Part shown: positions 32,281 to 57,092 of the stretch, piece after piece
How positions within the stretch are numbered: position 1 is the stretch's first letter
Layout of the letters: the number at the start of each line of letters is the position of its first letter
Assembly (NCBI GenBank): GCA_021234155.1
Contig: JAJEKV010000059.1
Coordinates: 6,061,215-6,125,214 of the forward strand
Reading direction: 5' to 3'
DNA length: 64,000 nt
From: Isoetes taiwanensis
Taxonomy: Eukaryota > Streptophyta > Lycopodiopsida > Isoetales > Isoetaceae
The notes under the pieces: model-generated
What the model was told of the DNA's origin: nothing
Database searches by the model: none
What the model saw: the letters and a program-made list of their open reading frames with translations, nothing else
Program-made: the position numbers and the translations under genes

Positions 32281-32354
32281 GCTTTTGTAGCTCAGTTGGT
32301 TAGAGCACCCGTTTAGTAAGCGGGAGGTCTTGAGTTCGACTCTCAATGAAAGCA
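32281..32354 (+). tRNA. tRNA-Thr(AGT), Thr-b
   Basis: Complete 74-nt copy. Confidence 0.92.
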
Positions 32355-32793: not shown

Positions 32794-32866
32794 GCTCTCG
32801 TGGCCTAATGGATAAGGCATTTGACTTCTAATCAAGAGATTGTGGGTTCGAGTCCCATCGAGAGTG
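32794..32866 (+). tRNA. tRNA-Arg(TCT), Arg-a
   Basis: Complete 73-nt copy. Confidence 0.93.
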
Positions 32867-32922
32867 TGCAAAAGAAAGTGGAGGTGAAAGTGATATATGT
32901 TGTTATAATCTGAGGTGTTAAA

Positions 32923-32996
32923 GCTTTGGTAGCTCAGTTGTGTAGAGCACCCATTTAGTAAGCGGGAGGTCTCGAGTTCGACTCTCAGCGAAAGCA
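32923..32996 (+). tRNA. tRNA-Thr(AGT), Thr-a
   Basis: 74-nt copy with CCCAT in the anticodon stem (G to A), giving an A-C mismatch with GCGGG. Confidence 0.85.
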
Positions 32997-33071
32997 TATT
33001 TAAACGAAGCCGCGTACTCCTATGGATAGGTCTTGTGATTATAATGTTGATTATGAAATCAAAGTTGGAAG

Positions 33072-33144
33072 GCTCTCGTGGCCTAATGGATAAGGCATTT
33101 GACTTCTAATCAAGAGATTGTGGGTTCGAGTCCCATCGAGAGTG
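33072..33144 (+). tRNA. tRNA-Arg(TCT), Arg-b
   Basis: Complete 73-nt copy with GCTCTCG acceptor. Confidence 0.93.
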
Positions 33145-33201
33145 TGCAAAAAGAAAGTGGAGGTGTAATTGATATATTTTTTTTTAAATAGAGGTGTTGA
33201 A

Positions 33202-33275
33202 GCTTTTGTAGCTCAGTTGGTTAGAGCACCCGTTTAGTAAGCGGGAGGTCTTGAGTTCGACTCTCAATGAAAGCA
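33202..33275 (+). tRNA. tRNA-Thr(AGT), Thr-b
   Basis: Complete 74-nt copy. Confidence 0.92.
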
Positions 33276-33709
33276 AAGTGATAATGGCCTGCAAGGAGTT
33301 TCATTTCTAAATGCATCAAATCTCTTTATTGATATGCTAGGAAGAAGTGACTTGTACTTGGTTGTTTTACCCAATAATGCTTCTCTTGATATTTGGCAAC
33401 ATGCATTACGATGTGTTCTTCACTATTAAATTTTTTTTCGTTTAAGTGGCAATTGACTCGTGACCTCATCTACATATTGCTATGGCAAGAGACCGACGTG
33501 AGAATGATTGTTTAGATTCAATTATCTTGGATATCTACTCATTTACGTCATCTACCGTGAATCTTTTCTTGCCCATAAGACGTGGCTTTGACTACTAGTA
33601 GTAACTTTTGGCTTATATCTCAATTGGTTAGGTAATATTAAAAGGAAGATGCGTACTCATATGGCTTGATCTGTATTTATATTGTTGATTATCAAATCAA
33701 AATTTCAAG

Positions 33710-33780
33710 GCTCTCGTGGCCTAATGGATAAGGCATTTGACTTCTAATCAAGAGATTTTGGGTTCGAGTCATCGAGAGTG
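33710..33780 (+). tRNA. tRNA-Arg(TCT), Arg-a, T-arm deletion
   Basis: Same 71-nt form as at 31874, showing that units three kinds apart share one decayed ancestor (alternating higher-order units). Confidence 0.65.
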
Positions 33781-33836
33781 TGCAAAAGAAAGTGGAGGTG
33801 AAAGTGATATATATTGTTATAATCTAAGGTGTTGAA

Positions 33837-33910
33837 GCTTTGGTAGCTCAGTTGTGTAGAGCACCCGTTTAGTAAGCGGGAGGTCTCGAGTTCGACTCTC
33901 AGCGAAAGCA
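33837..33910 (+). tRNA. tRNA-Thr(AGT), Thr-a
   Basis: Complete 74-nt copy. Confidence 0.9.
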
Positions 33911-33985
33911 TATTTAAACGAAGCCGCATACTCCTATGGATAGGTCTTGTGATTATAATGTTGATTATGAAATCAAAGTTAGAAG

Positions 33986-34058
33986 GTTCTCGTGGCCTAA
34001 TGGATAAGGCATTTGACTTCTAATCAAGAGATTGTGGGTTCGAGTCCCATCGAGAGTG
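33986..34058 (+). tRNA. tRNA-Arg(TCT), Arg-b
   Basis: Complete 73-nt copy with GTTCTCG acceptor; flank GTTAGAAG as at 32150. Confidence 0.92.
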
Positions 34059-34115
34059 TGCAAAAAGAAAGTGGAGGTGTAATTGATATATTTTTTTTTA
34101 AACAGAGGTGTTGAA

Positions 34116-34189
34116 GCTTTTGTAGCTCAGTTGGTTAGAGCACCCGTTTAGTAAGCGGGAGGTCTTGAGTTCGACTCTCAATGAAAGCA
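34116..34189 (+). tRNA. tRNA-Thr(AGT), Thr-b
   Basis: Complete 74-nt copy. Confidence 0.92.
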
Positions 34190-34629
34190 AAGTGATAATG
34201 GCCTGCAAGGAGTTTCATTTCTAAACGCATCAAATCTCTTTATTGATATGCTAGGAAGAAGTGACTTGTACTTGGTTGTTTTACCCAATAATGCTTCTCT
34301 TGATATTTTTTGGCAACATGCATTACGATATGTTCTTCACTATTAAGTTTTTTTTCATTTAAGTGGCAATTGACTCGTGACCTCATCTACATATTGCTAT
34401 GGCAAGAGACCGACGTGAGAATGATTGTTTAGATTCAATTATCTTGGATATCTACTCATTTACGTCATCTACCGTGAATCTTTTCTTGCCCATAAGACGT
34501 GGCTTTGACTACTAGTAGTAACTTTTGGCTTATATCTCAATTGGTTAGGTAATATTAAAAAGGAAGATGCGTACTCATATGGCTTGGTTCTCAGGATTAT
34601 ATTGTTGATTATCAAATCAAAATTGCAAG

Positions 34630-34702
34630 GCTCTCGTGGCCTAATGGATAAGGCATTTGACTTCTAATCAAGAGATTGTGGGTTCGAGTCCCATCGAGAG
34701 TG
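34630..34702 (+). tRNA. tRNA-Arg(TCT), Arg-a
   Basis: Complete 73-nt copy. Confidence 0.93.
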
Positions 34703-34758
34703 TGCAAAAGAAAGTGGAGGTGAAAGTGATATATGTTGTTATAATCTGAGGTGTTAAA

Positions 34759-34832
34759 GCTTTGGTAGCTCAGTTGTGTAGAGCACCCGTTTAGTAAGCG
34801 GGAGGTCTCGAGTTCGACTCTTAAATAAAGCA
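34759..34832 (+). tRNA. tRNA-Thr(AGT), Thr-a, altered 3' end
   Basis: Anticodon arm is normal, but the T-arm/acceptor 3' strand reads CTTAAATAAAGCA in place of CTCAGCGAAAGCA, breaking pairs in both stems. Confidence 0.65.
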
Positions 34833-34909
34833 TATTTAAACGGGGTTGGCAGACTCCCTATGGATAGCTCTTGTGAATATAATGTTGATTATGAAATCAA
34901 AGTTGGAAG

Positions 34910-34982
34910 GCTCTCGTGGCCTAATGGATAAGGCATTTGACTTCTAATCAAGAGATTGTGGGTTCGAGTCCCATCGAGAGTG
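34910..34982 (+). tRNA. tRNA-Arg(TCT), Arg-b
   Basis: Complete 73-nt copy. Confidence 0.93.
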
Positions 34983-35039
34983 TGCAAAAAGAAAGTGGAG
35001 GTGTAATTGATATATTTTTTTTTAAATAGAGGTGTTGAA

Positions 35040-35115
35040 GCTTTTGTAGCTCGGGCTTGGTTAGAGCACCCGCTTAGTAAGCGGGAGGTCTTGAGTTCGA
35101 CTCTCAATGAAAGCA
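35040..35115 (+). tRNA. tRNA-Thr(AGT), Thr-b, D-loop insertion
   Basis: 76-nt copy; D-arm reads GCTCGGGCTTGG instead of GCTCAGTTGG. The anticodon stem CCCGC/GCGGG is perfectly paired. The CAG-centred change is discussed in the findings. Confidence 0.75.
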
Positions 35116-35428: not shown

Positions 35429-35437
35429 CTTTGACTA
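35429..35437. repeat. Left 9-bp target duplication of the MULE
   Basis: CTTTGACTA occurs here and at 52235-52243. In uninterrupted array units the site is a single GGCTTTGACTACTAGTAG, so the repeat is a target-site duplication of MULE length. Confidence 0.9.
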
Positions 35438-35472
35438 GAGTGCAAATTTTTAGAGGTTTTTTTTAAGGATGG
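35438..35472. repeat. Left terminal inverted repeat of the MULE
   Basis: About 35 bp with TTAGAGGT then T-run and GGATGG, matching the right end in inverted form at roughly two thirds of positions, best in the inner part. Confidence 0.75.
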
Positions 35473-35860
35473 TTTAGGGGGTTTTTTTGTTTATGATTTA
35501 AAATGTGCATTTAAATGCACCCATTTCGATGAGAGTGGCTTTGAGATGTTATATTTATGTCATTGATTAACAAGGCATTGTAAAGTTAGATATAGAATAA
35601 AGCTCAAACTTTCACTAGAATATAGAACTTTCTACTTCCACCTAATTACCGTTTCAGCAACATCTATTCATATAAAAACAAAAAAAAAACCTTTATGTCA
35701 TAGATCGTAGTTGATTGTGCCAAGAGGATTTTAGAGCTTTTGATTTTAACTTAAAAAAGCATACTTAGAGTTATATGTTGAAGTAAAGAAAACCTTTAAG
35801 CATTTTAACCGGTTTGCATACAAGGAGAAGAAGTAAAACTTAAAGCTCTTGTCCCGTCCA
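35473..35860. other. MULE left arm, no gene recognised
   Basis: AT-rich sequence between the left terminus and Helitron H9. Nothing coding is seen. Confidence 0.5.
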
Positions 35861-37537
35861 TCTTATATTATAAAGTTTTAGCGTATGTCATGAATCAAAC
35901 CCTAATGTAGACAGTTGAGATCGTCTGATTGCATCCGAAGGCTAAGATCTATCGCATGACTCCTCATCACCGTGATTGGACATGCTTTGATCTCTTAAGA
36001 TGAAAGGGAAAAGGAAAAGGGAGGAGAAAAGGCCAAAGTGAAAGGAAAAAAAGGCATGAGTAAAAGGGAAAGAAGGAAAAGGGAAAAGGAAATGGAAAAG
36101 AGGACAAAAAAGGAAAAGAAAAAAAACGGGAGAAAAAGCAGGAAAACAAGATACTACGAAAAAAAAAAAAAGAAAAGGGTGAGGACATGAGTAAAGGGCT
36201 TCAGAGAAGGGAAGGGAAAAGGGAAAGGGAAACGAAAAAGAAAGGGGGCGGAGGAGGGGAGCGAAAAGGGACACTGGGAAAGGGGAACAGGGAAAAGGTG
36301 GGGAAAGGAGAAAAAGGGAAGGGAAAAGGACACACGGAAAAGGGAGTGGAGAAGGGGGAAAAAAGGAAAGAGAAAGGGAAAAGAAAAAGGGAGGGGGAAG
36401 CGGGAAAGGAAAGGAAAAATGGCATAGAAAGAACTGGAAGAGGGAAGGGGGTAAGAGAGAAGGGAAAAAAAGGGAAGAGGGAAAGTGCATGGAAAGGGGA
36501 AAAGGGAAGGTATGGAAAAAAGTAAATGGAAAAGAACAAAGGAGGAGGAAAGAGAAGGAAAAAAGGCACGAAAATAAAGGGACGGGAAAAAAAGTGAAAT
36601 AAAGGGACGGGAAAGAGAAATGGAAAAGGAAAAGGAAAAGGAAAAGGAAAAGGAAAAGGAAAATGGAGGGGGAGATGGGGAAATGGGAGGGAGAGAGAAA
36701 GGGTTGAGAAAGGAGAAAAATAGAAAGGAAAGAGGCCATTAGAAAAGGGGAAGGGGAAGGGGAAGGGAAGGGGAAAGGGAAAGGGAAGCAAAGCGAAGGG
36801 GAGGGGAACAAAAAGGAAGAGAAAAGATAGCAAAAGGGAAAAAGGGAAAAGCAGGGAATAGAAAAAACGGAAAGGGAAGAAAAAAAGGAAAAATGCAAAA
36901 GGGGGTGGAAAAAGGGTATGCCCGCGGGAGGGGGGGGGGGGAGATAAATGGAAAAAGACAAAGGGGAGGGGGAAAGAAAAGGAAAAGCAAAATAGGAAAA
37001 GGGAAAAGAGTAAAGGAAAAAGGGGAAAAAGGGAAGGGGGGGAGGGGAGAGGGAAAAAGGGAAAAAGATGAAGAAAGTGGAAAAGGGGAGCGAGCATGGG
37101 AAAATGAAGAGAAAGGGATTTCCCTTTCTCTTCATTTTCTCAAAAAAAGTGGGGAAAAGGGCACTAGAAAAAAGGTAAGACGCAAGGGCTGGCGAAAGGA
37201 GGGAAATGGAAGAGAAACGAAAAAGAAAAGGTGGGGAGAAGGGGAAAAGGGAAAGGAAAGGAAAAAGAAAAAGGGAAGGGGAAAGGGAGAGATAAACTTA
37301 GAAAAAATGGCACGAGGAAAAGGGGAAGAGGGAAATGGGAAAAGGGAAGGGGGAAAAGACATGAGGAAAAGGAGAAAGGGCAAACACGTACTGGAGAAAA
37401 AGTAAGGAAAAAATAGAAAAAGAAAAATGGGGAAACAAAAACAGAAAAGGGAAAAGGGACATGGGAGAAATGGAATTGCTCCAGTATATCATTTAGAGTT
37501 CCCAGCTATGCCCAGCAACGCTGGGCACCTTAACTAG
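35861..37537 (+). mobile_element. Non-autonomous Helitron H9 inside the MULE
   Basis: Starts TCTTATATTATAAAGTTTTAG at 35861 after A, ends with the GCCCAGC/GCTGGGC hairpin (37510-37526) and CTAG at 37534-37537 before T. The interior is a purine array on the plus strand, the element's sense strand. No gene. Confidence 0.88.
36000..37475 (+). repeat. (AAAAGGG)n-type purine array in H9
   Basis: Almost pure A/G on the plus strand, with one 19-bp perfect inverted repeat at 37100-37118 / 37121-37139 where the strand composition briefly flips. Long frames are artefacts. Confidence 0.92.
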
Positions 37538-37555
37538 TATCATGATAAAAACATC

Positions 37556-37656
37556 TCAATCCTGTTCACATTCATCATCTACAAGGAAACATCGCTTGCG
37601 CCTCTTATCTTTTATCTTTTGAGATCTTGATCCAACTAAAAAGCGAGCCATAGATT
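37556..37656 (-). CDS. Candidate 3' exon of the ParB/methyltransferase-like gene
   Basis: A minus-strand segment follows an acceptor-like CTATGCAG and encodes a short basic tail with KIKDKRRKR (nuclear-localisation-like), ending in TGA. The preceding segment has a GTAAGTG donor-like site overlapping its stop codon, so splicing into this exon is possible but the phase is not settled. Confidence 0.3.
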
Positions 37657-37752
37657 CTGCATAGACAGGAAGAACACTATAATAATTAGCTAATAACCAT
37701 AATTAACTATTATTACAAGAAAAAAGAGGAAAGCCACTTTCATGTACACTTA

Positions 37753-40700
37753 CTAAGCAGGTTCGTCATCTTCTTGAGGTATTTCGTCATCAGATTCTTC
37801 ATCGAAAGATATATTGCGCTTCTCAAGAGTGGTAGGAGGCACTTTTGAAGTTTTGATAAACGCCAAAAAATCTCACATGCTCAACAAGTGCCTTATCATT
37901 GTCAATCCCATAACAATGACGAGACAAAATAGCGATGCAACTAATGTAGAACCCTGCTCCACTAAATAAATCTAATATCAAACCTTCTTTGGGACTCATG
38001 TTCTCAATGATGAATTTCATGAAGTCGATTGATTTCTCAATGAGCTTTCTACTTGGTGATGATTGACTCGCAGCAAGTCTACTTCCAGGTGTAAAGAAAT
38101 GTTTCAGTGAAGCTTTGGCACATGAGAAACTATCACCTGAAAAGACCACATCATAAAAGATTCATAAGATTGTTACCATATAATTTTAACATTCATTACA
38201 TTAAATGAAAATATAGCCAAACTTACTTTCAGAAATGCCACTTGTTTGAAGAGATGGTTTTGTTCCCTTTCTTGACCATAAGTTAACAATAAGCACATTA
38301 TTTGCAACCATCCCCATTCTATCTTTTGTGTAGCCAAAAGCTCCATCTTGTTGCAGAAAATAAAATCTTGTAGTTTCTAGGCATTTCAGCCTTGCCTCTT
38401 TTTCTAATTGTCTTCCATTGTTCTGGTGAACAAATAGATACTATCCAACCATCATCATCTAAACATAAGGTTCCAAAGGAGAATGCAGCTTTGCACCAAA
38501 TCAGGTGCATTTGTTCCACTCTGGAACCTCCAAGTAATCGTTGCTTTGCAAGTCATGTGTGGGAAAGTCAATGATAACTAAATCATAGCCCCAATCTCTT
38601 GTAACTCCGCTTCTGCTATATTTATGAGAGTCCCTGGAATGAACTTTTGCAAACTCCCTCACTTCAGTAAAGCAAGGACAATCTAGCTTCTTAGTATATT
38701 GCTCGTAAGCACGCAGAACATCATCACAAACAATCTGAACATCCACATGTGAACTGATAGATGAAATGTCAAAGGGCGTGGATAAGTCTTCCTCATTTAA
38801 ATCATCAAATACATCCACTTCTGAACTTGTTTTCAGCATATCTTGCTTTATCTTTTTCCTTTTAGTAATTTTACCATCACTACTACGATTTCCCAATTCA
38901 TGACTAACCTTTTCAATAGATTCGCGCGGCCTCTTTGGATGCAAGACCTTTGAGTTAGCTTTGTATTCTGCTTCTTCTTCAAGTGGGTATTCTCCAACAA
39001 TAAAATCAATCCACCAAGGACAATTTTGAATTTCATAATCAGACAAGCCTCCTACTCTATCCAAGTTCCCCTTTTTCGAGTACATACCATTCTCATCCAG
39101 GGTCTTCCAACTCTTCAACTCATTTGGAAGTTTCTCAAGATGTTTGCCATTGTGAAGATGCTTGTAATATCTGATGGAAAAACACATGAAATTAGTCACT
39201 TATAAAAAACACATGAAGTTAGTCAAGGATGAATATCACACATGCCTTTTCATATGATCTTATAAGGATAACTAGTTAGGGTGCCCAGCGTTGCTGGGCA
39301 TGCATAAGTTTGTCGCATGTTAATGATACAACCTGTTGATGATACACGTGATATATCACGAAAACATTGCAATGATAAAAAAAACATTGCAATGACCATG
39401 TTACGACATTATTACATGCATGTTAAATGCAGGATCTTAGCAAATTGAACTGCTCTAGTTGTTTTTTGAAGGTATGATTGTTAATGGGTACAATCGCCTA
39501 GATGTAAACAATACATTTACAACGATGATACAAATGTAACCTTTTTGTTAATGCGGAGTTGGGTTTTTGGCCTCGCTTCGTCCACACCTGCTCATACTGG
39601 TGCTTCCCCCTAAGCTAAGGTGGAACGAAAGGTCAATTCAATATCGCCAGCCATCTTGAGAAGAGCCGCATGAAGTGTAAGTTCCACATACGGCCCGAAA
39701 GCCGAGCCTGCGCAGGGCGCAGTCCAGGCTTAGGTTAACCGATCTCAATTGGCGTTTCTTCCTCTGTTCTCCAGCTCTACGGAGTAACACATCTTATATT
39801 ATAATGTTATAATTATGGTGCCTAGCATTGCTGAGCATAAGTTAGAAACTTGTAAATGATAAGTCAACGCCGCTCCCAACCAAGATGTCCCTACTAATAT
39901 GTAAATGATACCTTGAAGGTGTCCCTACTAATATTCTTAGCGGAAACGTGTCCTTACTAATATTTGTAGGAATGTGCTAGAAGGTATCTCAACTTACCTT
40001 CTCGTGTTTTTTTGTTTGAACTGCCCTTTTAAGGCTAGGTGCTTTCCATTTTTCAAAGTTTCTATAAGATCATTAGTAGGATGCAATAACAATGCACAAT
40101 AGTGTGTGCAACATTGCAATAGAATGCAAAAAATAGCAATTCACCTAATTTGGAAGGAATAAAAGTCATTACCTTGTTTGATATATAGAGGGAAAACCAT
40201 AAAGAAATTTTTTTGTTTATGTGAAGTATGGTTTAGATTAAAGTAAATCATTCTCAATGTACGTGCAGCTAAAGTGACGTACAATTTCTCAAAGGGAGAA
40301 ACTAAATAGTCTTCATTTGGCATAGCCTATATGATTATGGAAAGGTTTGGCTTGTTTCTTTTTGGTAATCTAATGCATGGGCAGAGTTTCCTACCCCTGA
40401 ATATATGAGACAAACAATTTGAAAGTTGTTATTATTATTTTTTAAAATATATGAGAGACTTTTTGAATTTATTGTTATTTTGTAAGTTGCTATTGATTAG
40501 AGTAAGTGCTCAACCGCTCCAGTTTGATGTAATTACCAATTGCGCCGTCATGCTCTTTCAAGTGCGTTTCTACACCAAGTGGTGCTCAATTTTTAGCTGA
40601 AATGTGGCACCGTTGGAGATGGTTCAACACCATTGGCACCCTTTTTCAAGGCCTTTATTAGTGGTGCTCCATGGCAAGCACCCCGCAAAAGGAAGAACCC

Positions 40701-43700
40701 AATTTAAGAATTTAGCGAGCAAGAATTGAAATCGAGGAGAGAGACTATGCAACAATTAAAAATTCATACCCACAACAAAGCAAGCTTCAAATAACAAATA
40801 ACACGCAATCGCATAATATACTCATGGCTGCATATGCATTTCTTCATCCGAGTTGCAAATTCCAACTTTTCGCACATAAACTTTTGTGAGAAGCAAGATA
40901 AGTTGTTCTCCTTGATTGGAAGCATTATCTCGCAAAGATCACATGGAAATTTATATGTAATAAAATGGACTACATCCCAAATCGAGTGTGAGGGGCAAAT
41001 TACCCTCGAAAACCAAACATGGCCTGCAACCAATCTAAAAGATCAACTTCATCGCTTTTTCAAATGAAGGCTCCATCATAGATGGCCATGGCAGCCACAA
41101 ATTGTGCTCAAAGCATCCATCGGCCGCTCTTATCTAGCATTATGGAAATGCCAAAAGCGTAGATGTCCAAATCGAGATGAGCTTCATTATATACCTCATG
41201 CTTGTTGCATTATCGCTGCGCACACACACATCAACTTTAGCCATCCAGTTAAATACCCCAACGGCATCACTAACACTTCCGCGATCTCATGTACATGTTG
41301 ATTCCCTAAAAAGGAGCTTGTTTCAAACATCATTTTGCTCGGATATGCATGAATCGCTTTGCTTTTATTTAATATCATGCGGCTTTTGTTAAAACAGATG
41401 CAAGCATCAAAATGTTCCCTAGAATCTTTATGGTCCATGATCTTAAAGACAGAAAATGCTTCCTTTTAATTTTCCTTTCTTAGCCATTTGCCAAGATACC
41501 TACTTTTCCCACAATGTGGAAACTTTTGAAAAAAAAAAATCGTACCTCTAGAACAACTTCTTCTGTTTTATTATGGCACAGAGTGATTTAAGTCCGCATC
41601 GTTGGTCTAAGCCAAAAGCCTGCAAGGAAACATTTGCAAGCCAAGAAGGAGAAGGTTTTCCCGATCATAAAGCTTATATCACATTCCTTGGTCTCACACT
41701 CAAAGATTCAGTTAAACCCGTGGTAATCAAAGCCTCAACTTGGGAAAATCACTTTGCAAATACGATAGAACTGGCCCGCATGTCCCCGAGCCACGAAGCA
41801 AAGCTAACCCTTTGATGGGAAGAAAAAATATGCGGTTAAAAGCTCGGTTGCAAATGGACGAACCAGTTGCCCTTGAAGAAATTGGCATGCAAAGGCCGAA
41901 AACTCCGTAAGCAAGAAAATAGTTCGATGCAAGATAACCAAAATTCCCTTTATCCGTGTAGTAATACTACCACTTTCTTGAGTGATGAGCTTGGCCATGC
42001 CAAGGTAAAATAACCCCGGCGAGAGGCCCGAACCTTCCAAGCCAAGATCAAGACACGGGAATCAAGCGTGGAGGCAAGGGCGAGCGTAGACTTGGAACCG
42101 ATGTTCGCCAAAGAAACAGGAGGAGCAAGATCCGCTCTTGCAAGAATTGGGCAAATCGATGCCCTCTTCTTTCTGTGCCCTCTTCTTCGATCAAATCTCA
42201 ACCATTAAGTCTCAAACCCTAAATCTCAAATTTTGGATCTAGGGTCAGGGTCCAACACTTACACAATAACATTATAATATAAGATGAAAATAAAAGTTAG
42301 CCATATATACCTATAGCACACTCTTCTCGAACTTTTATCAATCTCATAACATTCGAAGCCCAAAGTTGCGTATATGTGTTTATGATATGTTTTGAACATA
42401 TTTGTTCTATTAGCCAATTTAAAAGCTCGAAACCAGCTTTCTAAATCCTCTCCGTGTGGAACAACTACTTCCAAGCCATATTCATTTGAGGTTTCTTTAA
42501 ATACGTCACAAGCTTTTTCAATAAGATGCTCCAACCAAACCTCTTTCTTCACCCATTCTTTGAATGCTTTATCACCCTTTGGTATTCCATACGTGCTATG
42601 AATTGCAGTGCCTGCTGACATCCAATGCACCCAACGATCTCTTACATGATTAGGCACTTTTGCCTTCACCATATCCAATAATTTCTCTATGGATAACCTG
42701 GATGTTTTTGTATCAATATCAGCCCTAGTTACAGCGTCAAACCAACTTTGTCCTAGAGCAGGATTAACAATGGCCAAAAGCTTCCCCATTTTATGCACCC
42801 ATTTCTCATGTACTTTTTTTGTGGCCACGAGCTTCAAAGCTTCAACATCATCTCCTTCCTTAAGCAAACCGACTTCCATAGATATTTCTTTATCTATTTG
42901 TCTCTGTATGATTAAGAATGTGAAGAAAATACTTAAAAGGAGGCATACATCAAAATCCAGTTCATAGGCAAGTTACTAAATGTTACTAAATTACCTGGAA
43001 AAGCAACTTGCAATATGCAAGCCTTGGCAATTGATACCATTGGTCAGTACCAACACTAGAACTTGCATTATCTTTGATTTTGAGTGATGCCAAATATTGT
43101 GGATCCAATTTGGAACGATATTGTTCAGGGTTTGCATTGGCCACCTCTTGAACACTATATAGTGTGTCTTTCATAGTGTTATGAATAACACCATCTTCAT
43201 TCAACCTGTAAATGAACTAAAGCATTTAGTCTATATTCTTGAACGATAGGAAAGAAAAAATATGCAAACCACTTACTCGTTGATTCTATTTAGAGCAGAT
43301 ATCAATTGCATTACATGACATTTTTCAACATCAATGAAAGAAGCAGAAACGCTGATGTGTCGTTTCTTATCAAACTGGAATTCATGATTTGAGCGTATTT
43401 CTTCCATCCATGCAGCAGTTCTGTGGTTTCCATCCCAACATAGAAACATTCTTCCAGACAATTCTTTCCAATCTTCAGAATCTTTGATTTCATTTTCAAA
43501 CTCCTCATTGATCTCTTTCCAATAATCATCCCACTTTCCTTTTATCACATCGCTAACAAGCACATCATTTCCCTTGCTTGTTTTCATAGATAATACAAAC
43601 TGGCCTTTTTCAGGAAGATAACCGTCATTTCTAAACACCTCTCGCATCTTCAAGTCACATTTTGAGACCACCCTGACAGCCTCATTACGTAATATTCTGC

Positions 43701-44019
43701 ATAAAGGTATTCTTGGTGCATCTGTTTTTCTCTTGATCCGACATCTATTTAAGATGTCTGCGACCATTTCATTTGCAAATACCTCCTCAAACTCCCGATC
43801 AATTGCTGACATATCAACCGTAGATTTGATATTTGGGTCATCATTTTTAGCAACGTTATTCTTATCTGATTGCATGTCTTCTCCCATTGCTATCAATGCT
43901 TGCAAGCTCTCAGGCTTTTTAGATTCAGATGCAACTTGTTGCTTTCCTCGAGGTCGCTTTGGAGGTGAGTACTTAAGTGGAATGAAATTGTTGAAACTGT
44001 TTTTCCTGGTTGTAACCAT
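37753..44019 (-). CDS. ParB-like / N6-N4 methyltransferase-like protein, spliced, frameshifted
   Basis: Five exons fit on the minus strand with consistent splice sites: 43277-44019, 42995-43205, 42311-42903, 38227-39170 and 37753-38136. Exon 1 starts with ATG, a Lys/Arg/Pro-rich segment, then a ParB/sulfiredoxin-like part with IPLCRIL and the signature CWDGNHRTAAW. Exons 2-3 are helical with no recognised fold. Exon 4 has a Lys/Arg-rich linker, then DWGYDLVIIDFPTHD where a beta-class methyltransferase has DPPY, and a WIVSI strand. Exon 5 has LILDLFSGAGFYISC and CYGIDND (AdoMet-binding motif I) and an acidic tail. Exon 4 needs frame changes near 38515 and in an A-run near 38400, and exon 5 needs one in a T-run near 37865, so it is decayed or carries homopolymer errors. 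Helitron H10 sits in the intron between exons 3 and 4. Methyltransferases of this fold methylate adenine N6 or cytosine N4; activity is doubtful with DFPT. The gene is divergent to the transposase. Confidence 0.6.
39272..42284 (-). mobile_element. Helitron H10 (composite) in an intron of the methyltransferase-like gene
   Basis: Minus-strand 5' end TCTTATATTATAATGTTATTG at 42284 (host T at 42285); 3' hairpin (39280-39298) and CTAG at 39272-39275 after A. Inside, at 39792, a plus-strand type 5' end (TCTTATATTATAATG) is followed within 20 bp by a mutated 3' hairpin (GTGCCTAGCATTGCTGAGC), so the element is a composite of at least two copies. It holds an organellar group II intron fragment (39.54-39.79 kb) and no recognised protein gene; an 80-residue frame at 41573-41815 is unidentified. 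Confidence 0.7.
39545..39790 (+). other. Organelle-derived group II intron 3' fragment
   Basis: Positions 39663-39696 read GAGCCGCATGAAGTG...CACATACGGCCC, the typical group II intron domain V hairpin. Upstream GC-balanced sequence and downstream pairing GCCTGCGCAGGGC-type bases fit the end of a plant organellar intron. It is too short for a gene assignment. Capture by the Helitron or earlier nuclear insertion of mitochondrial DNA would explain it. Confidence 0.65.
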
Positions 44020-45164
44020 AATATATCATGTTCCTGGTACAAAAAGGTCAAATACTAAGCAACAAAAAGCTATGTAAAATTACGCAACTTAACATTTAGA
44101 TGTAATGTAAGAAGATGTAATGTAAGAAGCTGTTATGCATGACACTCATGTTTATTAATGCTAATGTTTCCTTTACATATTTAGAACTTAGCTCATAGAG
44201 AAGCAAGCATCAACTCACCTCTGTAGAGGAAGGGCGCCGGCGAACCAGACGTACTCAGCCCATGATAAAGTCTGCAATCAAGAATATTGCATCTATTTTT
44301 AGTGCATTCTGATATTCTGAACTTACTTTCTAGAGGGAGGGTGCCGGCGAACTATAGCTACAGAGACACCTCATTCTTGCCTAGAAAGCAGATAGAGAAC
44401 AAAATGTAGATATAGAAACAACATTTTGATTTGCAGACATCATAATTGTTAAGTGTTTGGAAGCATATTCATGAGTCTTTCTCAGTAATTCTGTTAAGAG
44501 GTCTGTGGATTACACCATCACATTACCAGAATGTACATACCACAGTACACCTGCGAACGCACATATGTTGAGAATCTTGCTTGCAATCAATGAGAATATA
44601 TCAACGCAATTGTCCAGCTTGCACTGCATTTTTAAATCCAGATATGCCCGGTTTGCTATGACAAACAGAAATGCATAATCTAGGTGTTAAAACATGACAT
44701 GATTTTGTACTGCGCATGAATTTTAAAGCTTACAAAAATATTGTTCTAAAATCAACTCCGTAAGCCAAACTCTCCAGTCAAGTGCTAAAAGCTCCTGCCA
44801 AACAATCAACCTCATTAGAGGTTGCACAACCTTCATAGCAGATGAATTCGTTCAACTATACCAAATATGTGTTTCTTTGTAAGTACTTGTCGTAGAAAAA
44901 AATGATTTAGTTAGAATAATACTACAAGCTATGCCAAGATAATTTACAAATGATATTGCTACCCTTTACTAAATAACTTAACAAAATAGCTACCTTTACT
45001 AAAATAGCTACCCTTTACTAAAGAACTTAACAATATATCATTCAGCAAGTAACTGCAGCTTATTTTACTAGCATCACAACCTGGGAAAGCTACTTGCAAT
45101 ATGATAAATCTCAAAAATCCTACCAAAGACGACCAACAAAGTTGTAATCACAAGTATTGCATTA
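44020..45164. other. 5' region of the minus-strand MULE gene
   Basis: It contains two exon-like cassettes (about 44220-44272 and 44333-44370, listed below) and otherwise AT-rich intron-like sequence. No other gene. Confidence 0.45.
44218..44272 (-). other. Exon-like cassette copy 1
   Basis: On the minus strand an acceptor-like TTGATTGCAG precedes a ~50-bp block that ends GGTTCGCCGGCGCCCTTCC then a GTGAG-type donor. The block has high GC in an AT-rich setting and recurs six more times to 48.2 kb. Confidence 0.55.
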
Positions 45165-47241
45165 CTAGTTAAGGTGCCCAGGCCGTTCTTTGTTGAACCG
45201 CAATGTTGGAGACCTAGAAATAATAAGGTTTGTTGGAACTGGTAATGTTGGTGTCCTGGCATTTGTATTGTAGGAACCTTTAATTTCTTTTTTTTTTTTA
45301 TTCTCCTTTTTTTTTTAAACCCCGTTTCTCCCTCCCTTTGCCTTCCCTTTCCCCTTTCCCTTTTTTTCTTTCTCTTTTTCTTATCAGCTTTTTCCCTTCC
45401 TTTTTATCTTTCACCGCTCTTCCCATTTTTCCACTATTCTCTTTCCCTTTCCTTTTCCCCTTCCTCTTCCTTTTCCTTTTCCTTTTCTCTTTCCCTGCTT
45501 CTCATGCATTTTTTTTCGTTCTCTTTTGCTTACCTTTTCATGTGCCCTTTTCTTCCTTTCCCCACCCTCTTCCTCTTGATCACGTGCCCTTTTCCCCATC
45601 TCTTTTCCCATTTCTCTCTCCTCTTTTCCTCATGCTCTTTTTGCTTTCCTCTCTCCTTTTTCCGCTTCCCTTTTCCTTTCAACTTTCCATTCCCTTTTCA
45701 TACTTTTCCCCCACCTTTTGTTTTTCTTGTATGTTCCCTTTTTCCTTTCCTTTCTCTTTTCCCTTCCTTTACATTTTCCCTTTCCCCCTTCCTTTCGCTT
45801 TTCATATGCCTCTTTCCATTCCCTTTTCTCAACCTTTTTTATGTACCCTTTTTCCTTCTTTCCCCATCTTCTTCCCCATTTTCCCTTTCCACTTTCTCCT
45901 TTCTTGTTTCTTTTTTCTTTTCCCTTTCCCATACTCTTTTTCCCTTTCTTTCTTCTATTTCCTCACCCTTTCCCTCTTCCCTTTTTTCTCGTGGCCTTTT
46001 TCTCCTTCCTCTTTTCCTATTCCTTGCTCCCTACCCTTTTTGTCTATTCTAATTCCCCCCACCTTTTTCCTCATTTTTCCATCCTTTCCCTCTTCCTTTT
46101 TCTCGATGCTCTTTTTGCTTTCCTTTTTCTCTTTCTTCACCCTTTCTCTTTTCCCCTTTTTTCACGCCCTTTCATTTTTTCTCTTTTTCTCGTTCCCTTT
46201 TCCCAAGTTCTCTTTTTCCCTTTTCCCCCTCTCTTTTCCTTTTTACTTTTCTTTTTCCCATAGACTTTGCAACCTGTTCTTATTTTCCCTTACCTTTTTC
46301 TCCTTTTCTCACCTTTACTTCTTACCCTTCTCGTGGTGCTCTTTTTCCGTTCCCTTTCCCCCTCGCCTATTCTATTCCTTTTTCTATTTTCTTTTATCTT
46401 TCCATTTTCCTTTTCTCCTTCTCTTTCCTTTTTCCTCTTACCTTTCCTTTATTCCTTTTCATTTTTCCCTTTTCCCTTTTCCCTTTTCCCTTTCATCTTT
46501 TTTCCTTTTCCCTTCTCCTCTTCCCCTTTTCCCTTTTCCCTTTCATCGTTTTTCCTTTTCCCTTCCCCTCTTCCTTTTCCCTTTCATCGTTTTTCCTTTT
46601 CCCTTCCCCTCTTCCTTTTCCCCTTTTCCCTTTTCCCTTTTCCCTTTCATCGTTTTTCCTTTTCCCTTTTCCCTTTTCCCTTTTCCCTTTCATCGTTTTT
46701 CCTTTTCCTTTCCCCTTTTCCTTTTCCCTTTTCCCTTTTCCCTTTCATCATTTTTCCTTTTCCCTTCCCCTTTTCCGTTTCCCTTTTCCCTTTTCCCTTT
46801 CATCGTTTTCCTTTTCCCGTCCCCTTTTCCTTTTCCATTTTCCCTTTTCCCTTTTCCGTTTTCCATTTTCCCTTTTCCGTTTTCCGTTTTCCCTTTCATC
46901 TTTTTTCCTTTTCCCTTCCCCTTTTCCTTTTCCCTTTTCCCTTTCATAGTTTTCCCTTTTCCCTTTCATCGTTTTTCCTTTTCCCTTCCCCTTTCGGTTT
47001 CCTTTTTCCCTTTTCTCTTTCATCTTTTTTCCTTTTCCCTTCCCCTTCCCTTTTCCCTTTTCCCTTTTCCCTTTTCCTTTTCCTTTTCCTTTTCCTTTTT
47101 CCTTTTCCCTTTCATATTGAAGCCATAGTCGAGATGAAATTTTAGTTGAAGACACGCACACATCATCTCCACCATTGGTCAATCAAATCCTCGACCGTCC
47201 AATTTAGGGTGCGGTCCATTACACAACATTATAATATAAGA
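45165..47241 (-). mobile_element. Non-autonomous Helitron H11, sister copy of H3
   Basis: Minus-strand 5' end TCTTATATTATAATGTTGTG at 47241, followed by host T; CTAG at 45165-45168 after A. The 3' hairpin is broken: the left arm GTGCCCAG is followed by GCCGTTCTTTG rather than the complementary arm. The interior closely matches H3 in inverted orientation, including the (CCCTTTT)n array with CATCGTTTTTCC punctuation and the CCAATGGTGGAGATGATG sequence near the 5' end. Confidence 0.85.
45290..47115 (-). repeat. (AAAAGGG)n array in H11
   Basis: About 1.8 kb of C/T on the plus strand; higher-order motif TTTCATCGTTTTTCC spaced every 30-70 bp in the right part. The 596-residue frame is an artefact. 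Confidence 0.93.
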
Positions 47242-47560
47242 TTACATAAGCTTCTTAGGCTTAGCAGGCCAGTTCGTTGCTTCCAATTATTCTGCCAAGC
47301 CGCTTGGAGAACAATCAGAGAGGTATACTGATAGCTCATATTCCATTCTCGAAAATCAAGCTACCCCGCAGTAAAGAATTCGATGTATCCAATTTCGATA
47401 TATCGAGGGAGTGCCCGTAAGTCGAGGCTAGAACTAAACTAGTAAGCGTTTCTAGACCAAGGGCGCCAATGAACCACTCCCAGAAAGCAAGGTAGTGACA
47501 TTTTCGAAATGGTTTTTAATGCAGATTTTTAAACAGTAAGAAAACTAGATTTACCTTTCC
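47242..47560. other. MULE spacer, no gene recognised
   Basis: A short GC-balanced stretch (47.26-47.47 kb) lies between H11 and the cassette repeats. Nothing is identifiable. Confidence 0.4.
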
Positions 47561-48205
47561 AAAGGAAGGGCGCCGGCGAACCTCCTCCAAAACCTACGAT
47601 GAAATGCCCTGTCAGAAAAAATCTCTGTTAAGAAGCACAATAGTTTATGTGGCAAAAACCCATGGAAGAAAGGTTTCAGGCAACAAAAAATAGAAGCTGG
47701 ACTTACCTTTCCGAGGAAGGGCGCCGGCGAACCTACTCCAAAGTGTCCAATCAAATGCCTTATCGAAGTTATCTCTGTTATGTGGCACAACAGTTTATGT
47801 GGCATAAATCTGTGGAAGAAAGGTTTCGGTGCAACAAAGAATAGAAGTTTGAACTTACCTTTCCAGAGGAAGGGCGCCACGAACCTCCTCAAAAATTCTT
47901 GCATAAATCAGGAAGCAAGGTTCCAGGAATAATAATCTCTGTTGCATAAATCTGTGGAAGAAAGGTTCCAGGAAAAAAAAAAGAGAATCTGTGGACGTGC
48001 CTTTCTAGAAGAAGGGCGCCGGCGAACCTCCTCCAAAGCTTGCGATCAAATGCTTGTTGAAGAAATGATTTTTGAAGAAATCTCTAAGAAAGGTTCAGGG
48101 CAAAAGAAGATAGAAGCATTCAGGAAATAGATAGACTTACCTTTCTAGAGGAAGGGCGCCGGCGTACCGTCTCCAAAGCCTCTTAGAAAATCTCCAAAGC
48201 CTTGT
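47555..48205 (-). repeat. Tandem exon-like cassettes (five copies, ~150-bp period)
   Basis: On the minus strand five copies end in GAGGTTCGCCGGCGCCCTTCC(T)...AAAG followed by a GTAAGT/GTAAAT/GTAAGTT/GCACGT donor-like site (near 47555, 47705, 47860, 48003, 48142). Most are preceded by GGCATTTGAT and an acceptor-like AG after a pyrimidine-rich tract (clearest before the copy at 47555: TTTTTTCTGACAG). Each cassette is about 50 bp with ~100-bp intron-like spacers. They lie upstream of the minus-strand cargo gene and could be alternative 5' exons. Confidence 0.6.
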
Positions 48206-48701
48206 AGAAAAGTTTTTGTGCAAAAGTTTGTGGTAGGAAGAAAAAACATCGTAGAAAAAATTTTTGTGCAAAAGGTTTGTAGAAGGGAAAAAACATCGTA
48301 GAAGTTTTTGTGGAAAAGTTTTGTGCAAATTCCGTTGTGCAACTTTTACTTCGGTAATTAAGAGATTGCTATTGTGCAACTTTTACTTTTTCGTTGTGTA
48401 ACTTTTACTTTTTTCGTTGTGCAACATTTACTTTGGTAATTAAGAGTTTGCTATTGTTTAATTGTAAGCGAATATCTTTAATCCACTTATCGCAATTATA
48501 CATTTAATTTGACACATTCTAACCTCCTCCAATCAATACTTTAACGGAAAAAAATCTCGTAATCAATAAAATCTCGCAATCATGGCAAAATTTTGTGATT
48601 ATGGCATAATCTCCTTATTTCGTTTGTGCTGTTAAACGTATTGCACCAACTCACCCATTTTTATTTTACAGGATAATTGGCTCTGAATCTTCTTCTTCGT
48701 C
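48206..48701. promoter_or_regulatory. Probable divergent promoter region of the MULE
   Basis: This AT-rich segment separates the leftward cassettes from the rightward transposase ORF. It includes three or four short direct repeats of TGTGCAACTTTTACTT (48340-48430). No explicit promoter motif is claimed; the call rests on position. Confidence 0.35.
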
Positions 48702-50991
48702 ATGGCTCTAAACGATTGTGATATTCTGAGTTTCACTGCATCCGATGTGATCATCACCTCTCCTGGAAAGCGTATGAGAATCTTCTCGAACTTTGATAAT
48801 GGAGAATGTTGTTTGAACAGGAAGTGGCTATGTGACAGTTTCCAATTCAGGTTGGTCGGTTTGTGTGTTATTCAATCCTTCAATCGGTAGAGAGGGGAAG
48901 CTCAATGCGCCTTTGAAGAATCCAATCGACGATAAAGGTGAAGTTGTTTTCAAAGCACTTGCAAAAGAAATGGTAACTTTATTTCGTCAAGGAGCGCCAA
49001 TTTGTATAAGCACTCCAAATGCACCAATCTTTGTTGAAAGCCCTACTAATGAAGGTCGAGAAACGATCCAACAAGCCCTCAGGTCAACATTTGAAAGAAT
49101 TCTTTGGAGTTTTGGATCAAGTAAGTTGAAAAAGATTTGTGAGTCAGTACAGTTTGCACTAGAAGTTGAATACCTACCGCCTAACTATAATGATACTTTA
49201 GTTTTTGAGTTGCCTCCTGATGTCCTCAAGTCCATGTCTGGTATGGAACGCAAGCTTGATCCATATATTTGGAGCAAGCCAGAGAAAACGAGTGCATTTG
49301 ATGGTGTGGTTAAATATTCTAGATGTTGTGGACATCTAAGATGCATGAATCCTACATGTGACTATTTCCTTTCTAGAGGTGTTCCAAACGATGTTCAATG
49401 GAAAGGTACTTTGACGAAACAACCTACGCTTGGTCTTTTGTCCAAGGCTGAAGGTGTACTAGCTTGTGAATATTGTGAGGAACAACCTTCGTGCATCTCA
49501 TTATGCAAATGTGTAATCTATTACGTATTCCCCGATAATGCCAATCACACAAGATTAGTCCTTCATGTTGGGAAGCATGAACACCCATTTAGATCTCCAC
49601 CAAGTCGGGAGGAAGTAATTCAGTGTAAAAATATTGTTCAAGCAAAAGCAAGTGGATCTGTTCTTAGAAAGGGGCCAAAAGAAATAGAAAAGGAAGTTGC
49701 CATGGAAATGATGATCAATAAATTGATATCATCAGATGAAGCCTCTGAAATACATATGTGGGACAAAGAAAAAATTGATGGACTGCTAAAACAATTGCAG
49801 CCTCTTTGCAACAAACGGAGGTATGGCTAGTATACAAAAGAGAATAACATTGTTCTCTTTTCTTCATTGCATATAACGTGAAGTCTAAGCATTTCTTCAT
49901 TGCAGGATACGTCAATGGATAAACAAGACTCTAGAAACGCGTAGCCAACAGAAAGATGAGATTGGGAAGATCCTCTACTTAAAACAGCATTGCAAGTATC
50001 AGTTTTTCCCTATCAACTTCACGACGAGGTTACTGGTAGATGCTACATATTCAAAATGTCAACAACTGGCCCTGGATCTGGAGTAGAACTTGTGAACAGG
50101 ATGCGTCCTGGAGGAGATTTGGAGAATGCTTGGGTCCATTTTGACCACGTTAAGCGTATACCTGGATGGACAACTTTGGCTTGCCATGTATATGATCCTA
50201 GGTACTCATTCAACTTCAGTCATCTATGTGACTTGTATTGTTTAGTTTACCATATTTAGTTTTTGTTCATTACTTTCAGCATGCGTTGTCTATTGACCAT
50301 TGCAACATGTGAAATGAAAACTGAAGATACCAGCTCACAAGTAAAGTTTTGGAAGAAGCTAAACAACGTGATGGTCTTAAAGACTTCCAAGCCTGCACAA
50401 TTTAGAGGATTCATGGCTGATGAAGCTCAAGCCAATTGGAATGCAGTTCGTCTAGTATTTAATGATGGCCAACCAATGGAAGGGAAAGAGCGTGGATGTC
50501 AATTTCACTGGGAGCAGTGTCTTCAAAGGCATACAAATAAATATATTACACAAGAACATAGACAAGAGCATTTAACTTTATGCAGAGCATGGAGATTAGC
50601 AACATCTTTGAATGAAGCTGAGATTGCTTATCATAATATTATCACATGGTGGCCAGGAAGAGCCAATCCAGGAGACCTACCTTCATTAGGATCTTGGCTT
50701 GCATGGTGGCATCAAAGGGCTAGTAGGTGGGGAAATTTCATGCATGATGGTGTTGATCTAATTACAGCAGCTCAGATACCAAACACAAATATGTCTGAAT
50801 CTGTGCATGCAAGTTGGTTAGCTTCAAGAGGTTATGTTAGTAAGATAAGTTTGTATGATGCTTGTCTACATGATCTCACTGAATCTGTACTGCAAAGTGC
50901 AAAGTGTAAATCACACAGAGATCACAATTTTGTTGGCACAGGTCCTGGACTGGCCACACTGATTCGAAGAATAAGCACTCCCGCTTAGCAA
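48702..50991 (+). CDS. MULE transposase, N-terminal and catalytic part
   Basis: A start at 48702 opens a frame that changes near 48820 into the long frame 48832-49830 (332 residues). That frame has a Cys/His-rich segment CCGHLRCMNPTCDYF and CEYCEEQPSC (zinc-binding, FLYWCH/WRKY-like position). A donor at AG|GTATGG (~49825) and acceptor TTGCAG at ~49905 lead to an RQWINKTLETR exon, with a further frame change before HEVTGRCYIF. The catalytic region follows: HVYDPR, then after an intron FMADEAQANW (second Asp), GCQFHW (the C...H of MULEs), and NTNMSESVHASW (catalytic Glu). This order is that of MULE DDE transposases, which cut and paste DNA with 8-11-bp duplications, matching the 9 bp here. Apparent frame changes suggest decay or indel errors. 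Confidence 0.75.
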
Positions 50992-51038
50992 AGATGGTAA
51001 GTCCTTCGGGTTTGTGTCAATGCGCTTAATTCATCTCT

Positions 51039-52019
51039 TTGCATACTGGAATTCGTGCCACAAATCCAGGTTCTGGAGGGAATAATCAGACAGTTCTTAA
51101 GCGGACAAGAGATAGTTCAGAGTACAATAGGGACAATGGATCAGGTAGCCATCGACCAGATAAGAGGGCTCACACTCGGTCTAGAATCAGAATTGATGCA
51201 TCAATAAGACGTAATATAGTGTTTGATGAAGCTACCTATATTGTTCATGAGTTTGATGTACCTCAAGAAGAGTGGGCTATTAGAAGAACTGAACCAGGTA
51301 GTAGAGTGAAGTGCCAGGGAAAATTAGGACCAAATGGTAGGAAGTGCAACTCCTTTATCAATAAGATCATTACTAGATCAACGGCAGCACCATGTTTCAC
51401 AGGGGCAAGGACAGCAAATGGAAGGGAAGTCGTGCAAAAGTTTTGGTTTTGTCCTGAACATGTGCAACACACTTGGTATCCCTCTACTAACATATTACAT
51501 GTGCCAGCTAGACCAGCTGATTGGCCAGTCAGTATTGGGGTCAAACTAAGCAGTGAAGAGTTGGGAGTATTAGAGAGGGGGAACTACTCAATTAGAGGGA
51601 TCAACCCAGGCAATCCTTGCATGCAAAATGAATCCACCACGGCGAGCAACTCAATGACAGTTATGGTGCGGTTTGGAAAACGTATGAATAAAAGAACAAA
51701 GTTGGGGAAGGAAGCAGAAGTTAGACTTGAACAAGCTCTGCAATTCGAATGTCAAGTGCTTTCAATGAAAGTCATCACACCTCAGTTAGATGTCGAGTAT
51801 TGTATTAGAAGACCAAATGAAACTTACAAAGTGAGAATCTGCAAATATCCAGAGTGCACATGTGCAGATTTCTTGGCTAGAACAGCAAAACAACAATATA
51901 CTCCATGCAAACATCTGATGTTTGTTCTGGCCAAGATATTGAACCATGACCCTAGATTGCATTTAGACGTCATCCAACCTGTGATCACAGATGATGTCCT
52001 ACGATTAATCCTTCGTTGA
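51039..52019 (+). CDS. MULE transposase C-terminal part with SWIM zinc finger
   Basis: A 326-residue frame continues from the catalytic part after a donor GATG|GTAAGT at ~50997. It has an Arg/Lys/Ser-rich start, a Cys-rich stretch (VKCQG, RKCNSF, FWFCPEH), and near the end ICKYPECTCADFLARTA followed by TPCKHLMFV. This is the CxC...CxH SWIM finger usually C-terminal in MULE transposases and FAR1-type proteins, thought to aid DNA or protein binding. The stop lies 215 bp before the element's end. It is likely one protein with the preceding feature. Confidence 0.8.
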   Translation: MHTGIRATNPGSGGNNQTVLKRTRDSSEYNRDNGSGSHRPDKRAHTRSRIRIDASIRRNIVFDEATYIVHEFDVPQEEWAIRRTEPGSRVKCQGKLGPNGRKCNSFINKIITRSTAAPCFTGARTANGREVVQKFWFCPEHVQHTWYPSTNILHVPARPADWPVSIGVKLSSEELGVLERGNYSIRGINPGNPCMQNESTTASNSMTVMVRFGKRMNKRTKLGKEAEVRLEQALQFECQVLSMKVITPQLDVEYCIRRPNETYKVRICKYPECTCADFLARTAKQQYTPCKHLMFVLAKILNHDPRLHLDVIQPVITDDVLRLILR

Positions 52020-52234
52020 TGTCCTGTTTAGTCCTACGTAACATATCTCTTTGAAATTATTTCCATATGTTAATGTTATCTTCATATTAATTATTAAGCG
52101 AAGTGTGCACTATGTCTCATGAAATGCTTATTCATTCTAAGTTGTCAGGTGCAAATTTATAAATTTTAACTTTCTTTTTTTGGTATTTAACCCTCTTTGC
52201 CATCATGAAAAAAACCCTCTAATAAAAATCCCCC
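52020..52234. repeat. MULE right arm and terminal inverted repeat
   Basis: Non-coding 3' region ending in ACCCTCTAATAAAAATCCCCC; the last ~35 bp (52200-52234) are the right terminal inverted repeat. Confidence 0.8.
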
Positions 52235-52243
52235 CTTTGACTA
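52235..52243. repeat. Right 9-bp target duplication of the MULE
   Basis: CTTTGACTA, identical to 35429-35437; the array spacer continues with CTAGTAGTAACTTTTGG. Confidence 0.9.
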
Positions 52244-52359
52244 CTAGTAGTAACTTTTGGCTTATATCTCAATTGGTTAGGTAATATTAAAAGGAAGATG
52301 CGTACTCATATGGCTTGGTTCTGTGATTATATTGTTGATTATCAAATCAAAATTGCAAG

Positions 52360-52432
52360 GCTCTCGTGGCCTAATGGATAATGCATTTGACTTCTAATCA
52401 AGAGATTGTGGGTTCGAGTCCCATCGAGAGTG
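52360..52432 (+). tRNA. tRNA-Arg(TCT), Arg-a, D-arm variant
   Basis: 73-nt copy with ATAATGC in place of ATAAGGC, breaking one D-stem pair. The same variant is at 57093. Confidence 0.82.
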
Positions 52433-52488
52433 TGCAAAAGAAAGTGGAGGTGAAAGTGATATATGTTATTATAATCTGAGGTGTTGAA

Positions 52489-52562
52489 GCTGTGGTAGCT
52501 CAGTTGTGTAGAGCACCCGTTCAGTAAGCGGGAGGTCTCGAGTTCGACTCTCAGCGAAAGCA
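52489..52562 (+). tRNA. tRNA-Thr(AGT), Thr-a variant
   Basis: 74-nt copy with GCTGTGG acceptor and loop TCAGTAA; anticodon still AGT. Confidence 0.83.
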
Positions 52563-57074: not shown

Positions 57075-57092
57075 TCAAATCAAAATTGCAAG

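Follow-up and report, generated by a model that had tools for sequence, protein, structure and literature searches.

Does a transposon of a vascular plant carry, as a lasting second gene, a protein that joins a ParB-like domain to a DNA methyltransferase-like one, and what could such a protein do for the element? The question is raised by a Mutator-like element (MULE) of Isoetes taiwanensis, located in a stretch of 64,000 nucleotides which we call the window (contig JAJEKV010000059.1, positions 6,061,215 to 6,125,214). A preliminary description of the window, made from its letters, had proposed that the element has a 9-bp target duplication in an array site, inverted ends, and a plus-strand transposase gene divergent to a minus-strand gene with ParB-like and methyltransferase (MTase)-like parts. 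We searched the genome (1,658,258,908 bases, 1110 contigs) for relatives. Below, L numbers designate fetched loci and C numbers contigs, and features given without a strand have none assigned.

The element occupies positions 35438..52235 of the window, in a unit of a tRNA array. It is flanked by perfect copies of the 9-bp target duplication CTTTGACTA at 35429..35437 and 52236..52244 (both on the plus strand, found by comparison of array copies). Five uninterrupted array copies in the window run unbroken across the insertion point of CTTTGACTA, so that the empty site is seen intact. The ends are short, imperfect terminal inverted repeats (TIRs), GAGTGCAAATTTTTAGAGG and GGGGGATTTTTATTAGAGGG. The left end is common to L002, L003, L005 and L006 and the right end to L003 and L006, these two being shortened copies with perfect 9-bp duplications of their own. 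We also found 9-bp target duplications in L009, L010 and L011, whose TIRs, likewise short and imperfect, match at 15, 18 and 15 of 24 positions, respectively. In L010 and L011 both genes are complete, with matching ends on either side; L009 keeps the ends and the duplication with little of the MTase left. Neither ends nor target duplication were found in L001, L007, L008 and L012 within the ranges searched. The duplication at an array site and the inverted ends were thus both as first described.

Recurrence and shared descent of the gene pair

The two genes recur together in the genome. The search tables listed 151 matches to the exon encoding the ParB-like domain (ParB exon), 150 to the MTase exon and 153 to the transposase; for each query 150 were scored, out of 456-481, 692 and 827-831 candidates, respectively. 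In these first lists, a transposase lay at most 20 kb from 60 of the 150 listed ParB rows, always in divergent orientation (shifted control 0.6, maximum 4); one gene (C907) accounts for two of the 60 rows, each a fragment of it. We then considered 179 listed transposase loci, a list extended by further queries with those rows alone that looked new on inspection by eye; an overlapping match on C1063 was dropped. Among these, a ParB or MTase exon lay no more than 20 kb away in 101 cases, the two genes being divergent in 99 and sharing a strand in 2; the shifted control had a mean of 1.0 (0.26 divergent; maximum 4). When five of the 78 loci without a listed partner were opened, four had matches to the ParB, central and MTase exons upstream of the transposase. 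The copies opened are thus mostly gene-bearing, with exceptions: L003, L006 and L009 are deletion derivatives, and L054 shows no accessory gene in the 7 kb examined. The check suggested with the preliminary description, whether both genes co-occur between matching inverted repeats in other copies, came out positive in L010 and L011.

Both genes are under purifying selection. In pairwise comparisons, which are not independent and in which the limits on dS and length differ between the ParB exon and the other parts, the ratio of non-synonymous to synonymous substitution rates (dN/dS) of the ParB exon was 0.04-0.44, with a median of 0.12 (14 pairs, dS 0.1-1.2); that of the MTase part had a median of 0.18 and a maximum of 0.69, the latter reached by one near-saturated pair (31 pairs, dS 0.15-1.2). 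Two pairs of the central exon gave 0.15 and 0.19, and five pairs of the transposase gave 0.10-0.24.

The ParB parts diverge down to about 42% identity to that of the window, and the ParB-like and transposase genes descend together. For the 27 loci that had already been fetched, ParB and transposase distances were correlated with a Mantel r of 0.90, the best of 10,000 permutations reaching 0.26. The two trees, built from the same 27 loci, are largely congruent: 15 of 24 splits are common to both, and conflicting pairs of splits number 4 at a support of at least 0.8 and 1 at a support of at least 0.9. The conflict at 0.9 concerns the C372/C1028 group (L094, L095), for which the ParB and transposase trees disagree with supports of 0.999 against 0.92; by eye, the palindromes of L094 and L095 (see below) are closer to those of other ParB clades. 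In this group, the accessory module was possibly swapped together with its sites.

The accessory protein and the transposase

The accessory gene lies on the minus strand of the window. Its ParB exon, with the motif CWDGNHRTAAW, is at 43277..44019 (limits read by eye), followed by a second exon at 42995..43205 (splice sites read by eye), a central exon at 42311..42903 that recurs in L053, L055, L056 and L057, an exon with methyltransferase motif IV (DFPT) at 38227..39170, and a last exon with motif I at 37753..38136. The window copy is decayed: read by eye, the frame is broken in exons four and five, in the latter near its end, and motif I reads LFSGAGF where close relatives have FSGTGS. Structure prediction covered the ParB exon and the MTase part.

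Profile scans of the ParB exon, in the window copy and in relatives, gave no ParB match. Its predicted fold had a predicted local distance difference test score (pLDDT) of 75.9, and the first 33 rows returned by Foldseek for this model were all ParB, Noc, KorB or sulfiredoxin (Srx), with a best E-value of only 0.1. Against the ParB structure 6t1f, the best VIA Z was 6.2, the tool's safe level being 8 (root-mean-square deviation, rmsd, 2.8; 84 aligned). Among 28 aligned ParB-exon rows, DGNH is present in all and DGNHR in 27; we take DGNHR to be the conserved G-x-H/R-R motif of the ParB/Srx type. The consistency of the Foldseek list together with this motif, not the scores, points to a ParB/Srx-like domain. 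Relatives of the ParB exon were not found in viral contigs or genome contigs, both scanned for two short patterns only, or in phages, and in hhalign three phage proteins gave no match to the ParB profile.

The MTase part was recognised by the Pfam profile N6_N4_Mtase, with E-values of 2.1e-8 in L007 and 5.7e-7 for the last exon of the window copy; L010, with 0.008, fails the cut-off. Its predicted fold superimposes on CcrM with Z 22.3 and rmsd 3.1 over 218 residues, and the motifs stand in the beta-class order, IV before I (positions 162 and 333 in the L007 part). This part is thus predicted to have the fold of a beta-class DNA methyltransferase. Of the two domains of the preliminary description, the methyltransferase was supported by a profile, the ParB-like one is suggested by its predicted fold, and the divergent arrangement held.

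Of the 61 host sequences scanned, 36 could be read or aligned at motif IV, many of the others holding only the ParB part or intergenic DNA. The motif position reads [D/E/I][F/L]PT in 32 of 36 copies (DFPT 15, DLPT 14, ELPT 1, IFPT 2), the other four being unreadable there and the window copy being counted twice. The catalytic [DNS]PP[YFW] (DPPY, SPPY, NPPY) was seen in 0 of these 36 copies, including the four unreadable ones; the three phage enzymes used for comparison carry DPPY. One of the IFPT copies, L053, has a stop directly ahead of the motif. The equivalence of D[F/L]PT with the DPPY position rests on placement: residues 162-165 of L007 end a predicted strand (156-162) in the region matching CcrM, while the hhalign comparison with phage methylases covered motif I only and gives no residue-by-residue alignment at motif IV. 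In a separate search, the MTase part matched phage methylases over no more than about 62 residues around motif I. Most aligned rows and clades retain motif I. It is degraded to LMPGVGS-like or LFAGSAPM sequences in two clades (L014, L015, L016, L019 and L023, L024), where motif IV is still DLPT. Because DPPY is replaced by [D/E/I][F/L]PT in all readable copies, ordinary catalysis of N6-methyladenine (m6A) or N4-methylcytosine (m4C) by the accessory protein is doubtful, and the idea, put forward at first, that the gene marks element DNA by methylation is weakened. Lost or altered catalysis would be the simplest reading of the change; METTL14, beside METTL3, offers a parallel.

The transposase gene is on the plus strand. 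A first coding part at 48702..49830 (start read by eye) and an open stretch at 49960..50259, whose exon limits are not fixed, precede the catalytic part, an open reading frame at 50281..50988 with FMADEAQANW, CQFH and MSESVH; we take this D / CxxH / E layout, read by eye, to be that of MULE transposases. The C-terminal part, at 51030..52019, has a SWIM-like CxC...CxH. No MULE profile of Pfam or NCBIfam matched the window copy or the relatives scanned. SWIM was found in L007 at 19.7 bits (Pfam cut-off 19.6); the window copy scores 13.8 bits, too low for this cut-off, and the Pfam scan of L010 found no SWIM. Of the MULE-DDE and SWIM assignment made earlier, the SWIM half is supported by a profile, in L007, and the MULE half is suggested by motifs read by eye.

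GGCGCC palindromes and later insertions

The DNA between the two genes carries a repeated palindrome. In the window it holds seven GGCGCC sites, five of them within GGCGCCGG: one, at 44233..44238, lies upstream of the accessory gene, and six further ones, starting at 47462, 47569, 47720, 47873, 48015 and 48155 (47462..48160), include four in GGCGCCGGCG. By comparison, the window outside the element has 1 GGCGCC in 47 kb, and 31 kb of element gene parts have none. Other families show the same GGCGCC core with flanks that differ by family. We fixed this as a prediction and then examined 12 further intergenic regions (37.8 kb). They contained 41 GGCGCC, for a Markov expectation of 1.5 on average (maximum 6 in 300 sequences), and a total of 5 of the other seven palindromic G/C hexamers; 9 of the 12 regions had at least one site and 7 at least two. 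At least two sites were present in 10 of 12 regions of the discovery set, where the other G/C hexamers totalled 29, of which 21 are GCCGGC, which overlaps the GGCGCCGGCG of the window family. In both sets together, at least one GGCGCC is present in 19 of 24 intergenic regions and at least two in 17 of 24, these 24 omitting L007, which has almost no intergenic DNA, and L002, whose piece ends inside the intergenic DNA (1 site).

Other cores were seen repeated in L105 (C1055), L101 (C930) and L102 (C1069), with the motifs GGTAGTTCGGCACCGA, GTGCGGCGGCGCAC and GTGCGCCGGCGCAC. L105 has one GGCGCC plus GGTAGTTCGGCACCGA repeats, and in L101 and L102 repeated palindromes of a related kind stand in place of GGCGCC, as if the target had shifted in these three loci.

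The 14-bp palindrome AAACGGCGCCGTTT was also searched genome-wide and gave 51 sites, the reversed control giving 0. Fifty of the 51 sites fall in 22 clusters; 11 of these are at a distance of 0.7-2 kb from an accessory gene of the lists, upstream of it in all 11 cases (shifted control 0.03, maximum 1). We looked into three of the 11 other clusters, and all three adjoin a decayed transposase of the same family; one of them, L106, has ParB and MTase matches too. The printed termini of the elements (the window, L003, L006 and L009-L011 set) hold no GGCGCC, which argues against end recognition by the transposase through this motif. Such palindromes would suit a dimeric binder, and their iteration recalls the parS clusters of bacteria.

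Comparison with other copies identified three nested insertions in the window copy. Two have ends which, by the criteria we assume for Helitrons, are Helitron-like (5' TC, the hairpin GCCCAGCAACGCTGGGC just before a 3' CTAG, flanked by A and T). The one at 35861..37537 is missing in L001, L003, L005 and L006, L002 having there some 1.65 kb that do not align; the one at 39272..42283, within an intron of the accessory gene, is missing in L001, L002, L003 and L005. The third, pyrimidine-rich, at 45070..47448 (limits inexact), is missing in L005 along with 44404-45069. We had considered that the ParB-MTase gene belongs to a separate element nested in the MULE and bounded by purine- and pyrimidine-rich tracts; this was rejected because the tracts proved to be insertions of their own, which other copies lack while retaining the gene. 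A long purine-rich tract is contained in the insertion at 35861-37537. Related Helitron-like ends, with the GCCCAGCAACGCTGGGC hairpin and CTAG, occur near window positions 756, 14745, 20389, 23383 and 25583. The end sequences at 8399-8585 and 47111-47260 are about 98% identical in opposite orientation, beside low-complexity tracts, and look as if they were two copies of one insertion type. The surrounding array of tRNA-Arg (TCT) and tRNA-Thr (AGT), with 45 genes predicted in the window, extends over 814-1017, 29120-35115, 52360-52562 and 55951-63524.

Possible role of the accessory protein and related systems

What could the accessory gene do? In the model that we favour, the transposase would move the element and the divergent gene would give a fusion protein in which a central region joins a ParB/sulfiredoxin-like domain to a beta-class methyltransferase fold. 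This protein would recognise, and load at, the iterated GGCGCC palindromes that lie between the genes and, seen from its own coding region, upstream. Once loaded, it would keep the promoter region of the element unsilenced, like VANC in the VANDAL MULEs of Arabidopsis. The methyltransferase fold would probably serve for DNA binding, perhaps for S-adenosylmethionine binding, rather than for ordinary m6A/m4C catalysis. The anatomy, a MULE accessory gene with a family-specific intergenic motif, is VANC-like, and binding to its own palindromes and promoter opening were proposed on this ground; we infer the binding of the arrays, the anti-silencing outcome and the inactivity of the enzyme. A VANC-like element-specific binder with an anti-silencing role is the best mechanism we can offer, and together with the view that the family is an old two-gene MULE lineage it is held tentatively, at somewhat under an even chance.

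Several observations weigh against this model. GGCGCC is absent from 5 of 24 intergenic regions (L010, L011, L100, L101, L102). The test regions are partly dependent: C372 and C1028 are kin of the discovery-set locus L053, and within the test set three pairs are related to each other (C967/C995, C1074/C1045, C919/C930). The observed/expected CpG ratio is 0.56 beside the arrays, 0.37 in coding parts, 0.51 in the rest of the intergenic DNA and 0.56 in the window outside the element; as the array value is near that of the other intergenic DNA and equals this last one, CpG depletion was dropped as too weak a sign of hypomethylation. Other points against it favour a rival in which the arrays are repeated 5' exon or promoter cassettes, or are bound by the transposase or by a host factor, and in which the accessory protein acts elsewhere, as a transposition helper like mudrB. 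At 37 of 99 sites a splice-donor-like GTRAG stands no more than 45 bp after the core in the direction of the gene (reversed, 2 of 99; the 99 include 10 with other cores, from L101, L102 and L105), so part of the conservation of the core could come from repeated 5' exons. The window has tandem 151-bp units, L107 and L108 have the array with no accessory gene detected in about 5 kb, and L010 and L011, among the most intact copies with long frames for both genes, have no GGCGCC in the 10 kb fetched. However, the core is common to families with different flanks and to families devoid of GTRAG (L056, L097, L099, L104), and a splice donor has no need of a palindrome. We consider this rival unlikely, while giving it serious weight.

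An active methylase, writing m4C or m6A on its own element with GGCGCC as target or landing site, would agree with the predicted match to CcrM and with a motif I kept in most aligned clades; in the accessible part of its description, the same domain pair in Sola1 of Ectocarpus is suggested to modify its own transposon (PMC12477816). The lack of DPPY, SPPY and NPPY, with DFPT, DLPT, ELPT or IFPT in all copies readable at motif IV, the degraded motif I of two clades and a core without adenine all speak against it, and make it quite improbable in our opinion. Another view would be a counterpart of ParB-parS: an NTP-gated (nucleoside triphosphate-gated) clamp would load at GGCGCC and slide or spread, a methylase-derived reader would keep the whole transposon open, and protein and palindrome would co-evolve so that only its own kind is recognised. 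We regard this more elaborate proposal as improbable too, and slightly the more so. Finally, the accessory gene could be a passenger of no use to the element, picked up a single time and carried along in the manner of Pack-MULEs. Loss of parts of it in L003 and L009 and the absence noted in L054 would be in line with this, but purifying selection on the gene, the near-constant divergent orientation and largely congruent trees for clades down to about 42% identity make it hardly credible.

The GGCGCC palindromes offer a candidate DNA target, and with it the published guess that such proteins attach to and modify their own transposon becomes testable. That DPPY is changed wherever the motif could be read suggests that a methylase has become a binder or reader, and protein and palindromes could be a means of marking or protecting the element's own DNA. 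The predicted folds resemble those of bacterial ParB and of CcrM-type beta-class methylases; unlike in the latter, the catalytic DPPY is not seen in the Isoetes copies.

The accessory protein belongs to a class already known. As far as the available part of the article shows, Sola1-1_Ec32 of the brown alga Ectocarpus has a ParB-like and DNA methyltransferase gene opposite its transposase, and similar proteins on green and red algal transposons are cited there (PMC12477816). Both are DNA transposons in which ParB-like and N4C/N6A-type methyltransferase domains share one protein transcribed opposite the transposase; unlike the Isoetes MULE, Sola1-1_Ec32 is of the Sola1 superfamily, 21.5 kb long, with a protein of 1104 aa. 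The likeness is one of description, and the accessible account mentions neither a motif IV change nor a palindrome array (PMC12477816). The preliminary description had held the pairing to be unfamiliar on a MULE: we found no report of it on a MULE or in a vascular plant in a literature search covering few subscription papers, while on a eukaryotic transposon it is in print. What is new, as far as this search shows, is its presence on a MULE and in a vascular plant, to which ParB-methylase-carrying transposons now extend, together with the altered motif IV and the arrays of palindromes. A word search of the main text of a MULE survey, in the form available, gave no occurrence of ParB or methyltransferase (PMC6446971). 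With MuDR/mudrB the Isoetes element shares being a MULE, the 9-bp target duplication, SWIM and a second gene (PMC6446971).

The closest functional comparison would be with VANC of the VANDAL MULEs which, according to the accessible part of the report, binds short family-specific motifs tandemly duplicated in the non-coding DNA of the element and removes silencing (PMC5735166). In both cases a MULE has an accessory gene and short motif repeats in its non-coding DNA, and motif and protein both differ between families. The VANC21 motif has nine bases and is arrayed in a single orientation (PMC5735166, same part), whereas Isoetes has GC-rich palindromes as sites and a ParB/MTase-like protein; binding was shown for VANC and is proposed for the Isoetes protein. 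If the analogy is true, two unrelated protein families would independently have become anti-silencing factors of MULEs with motif arrays.

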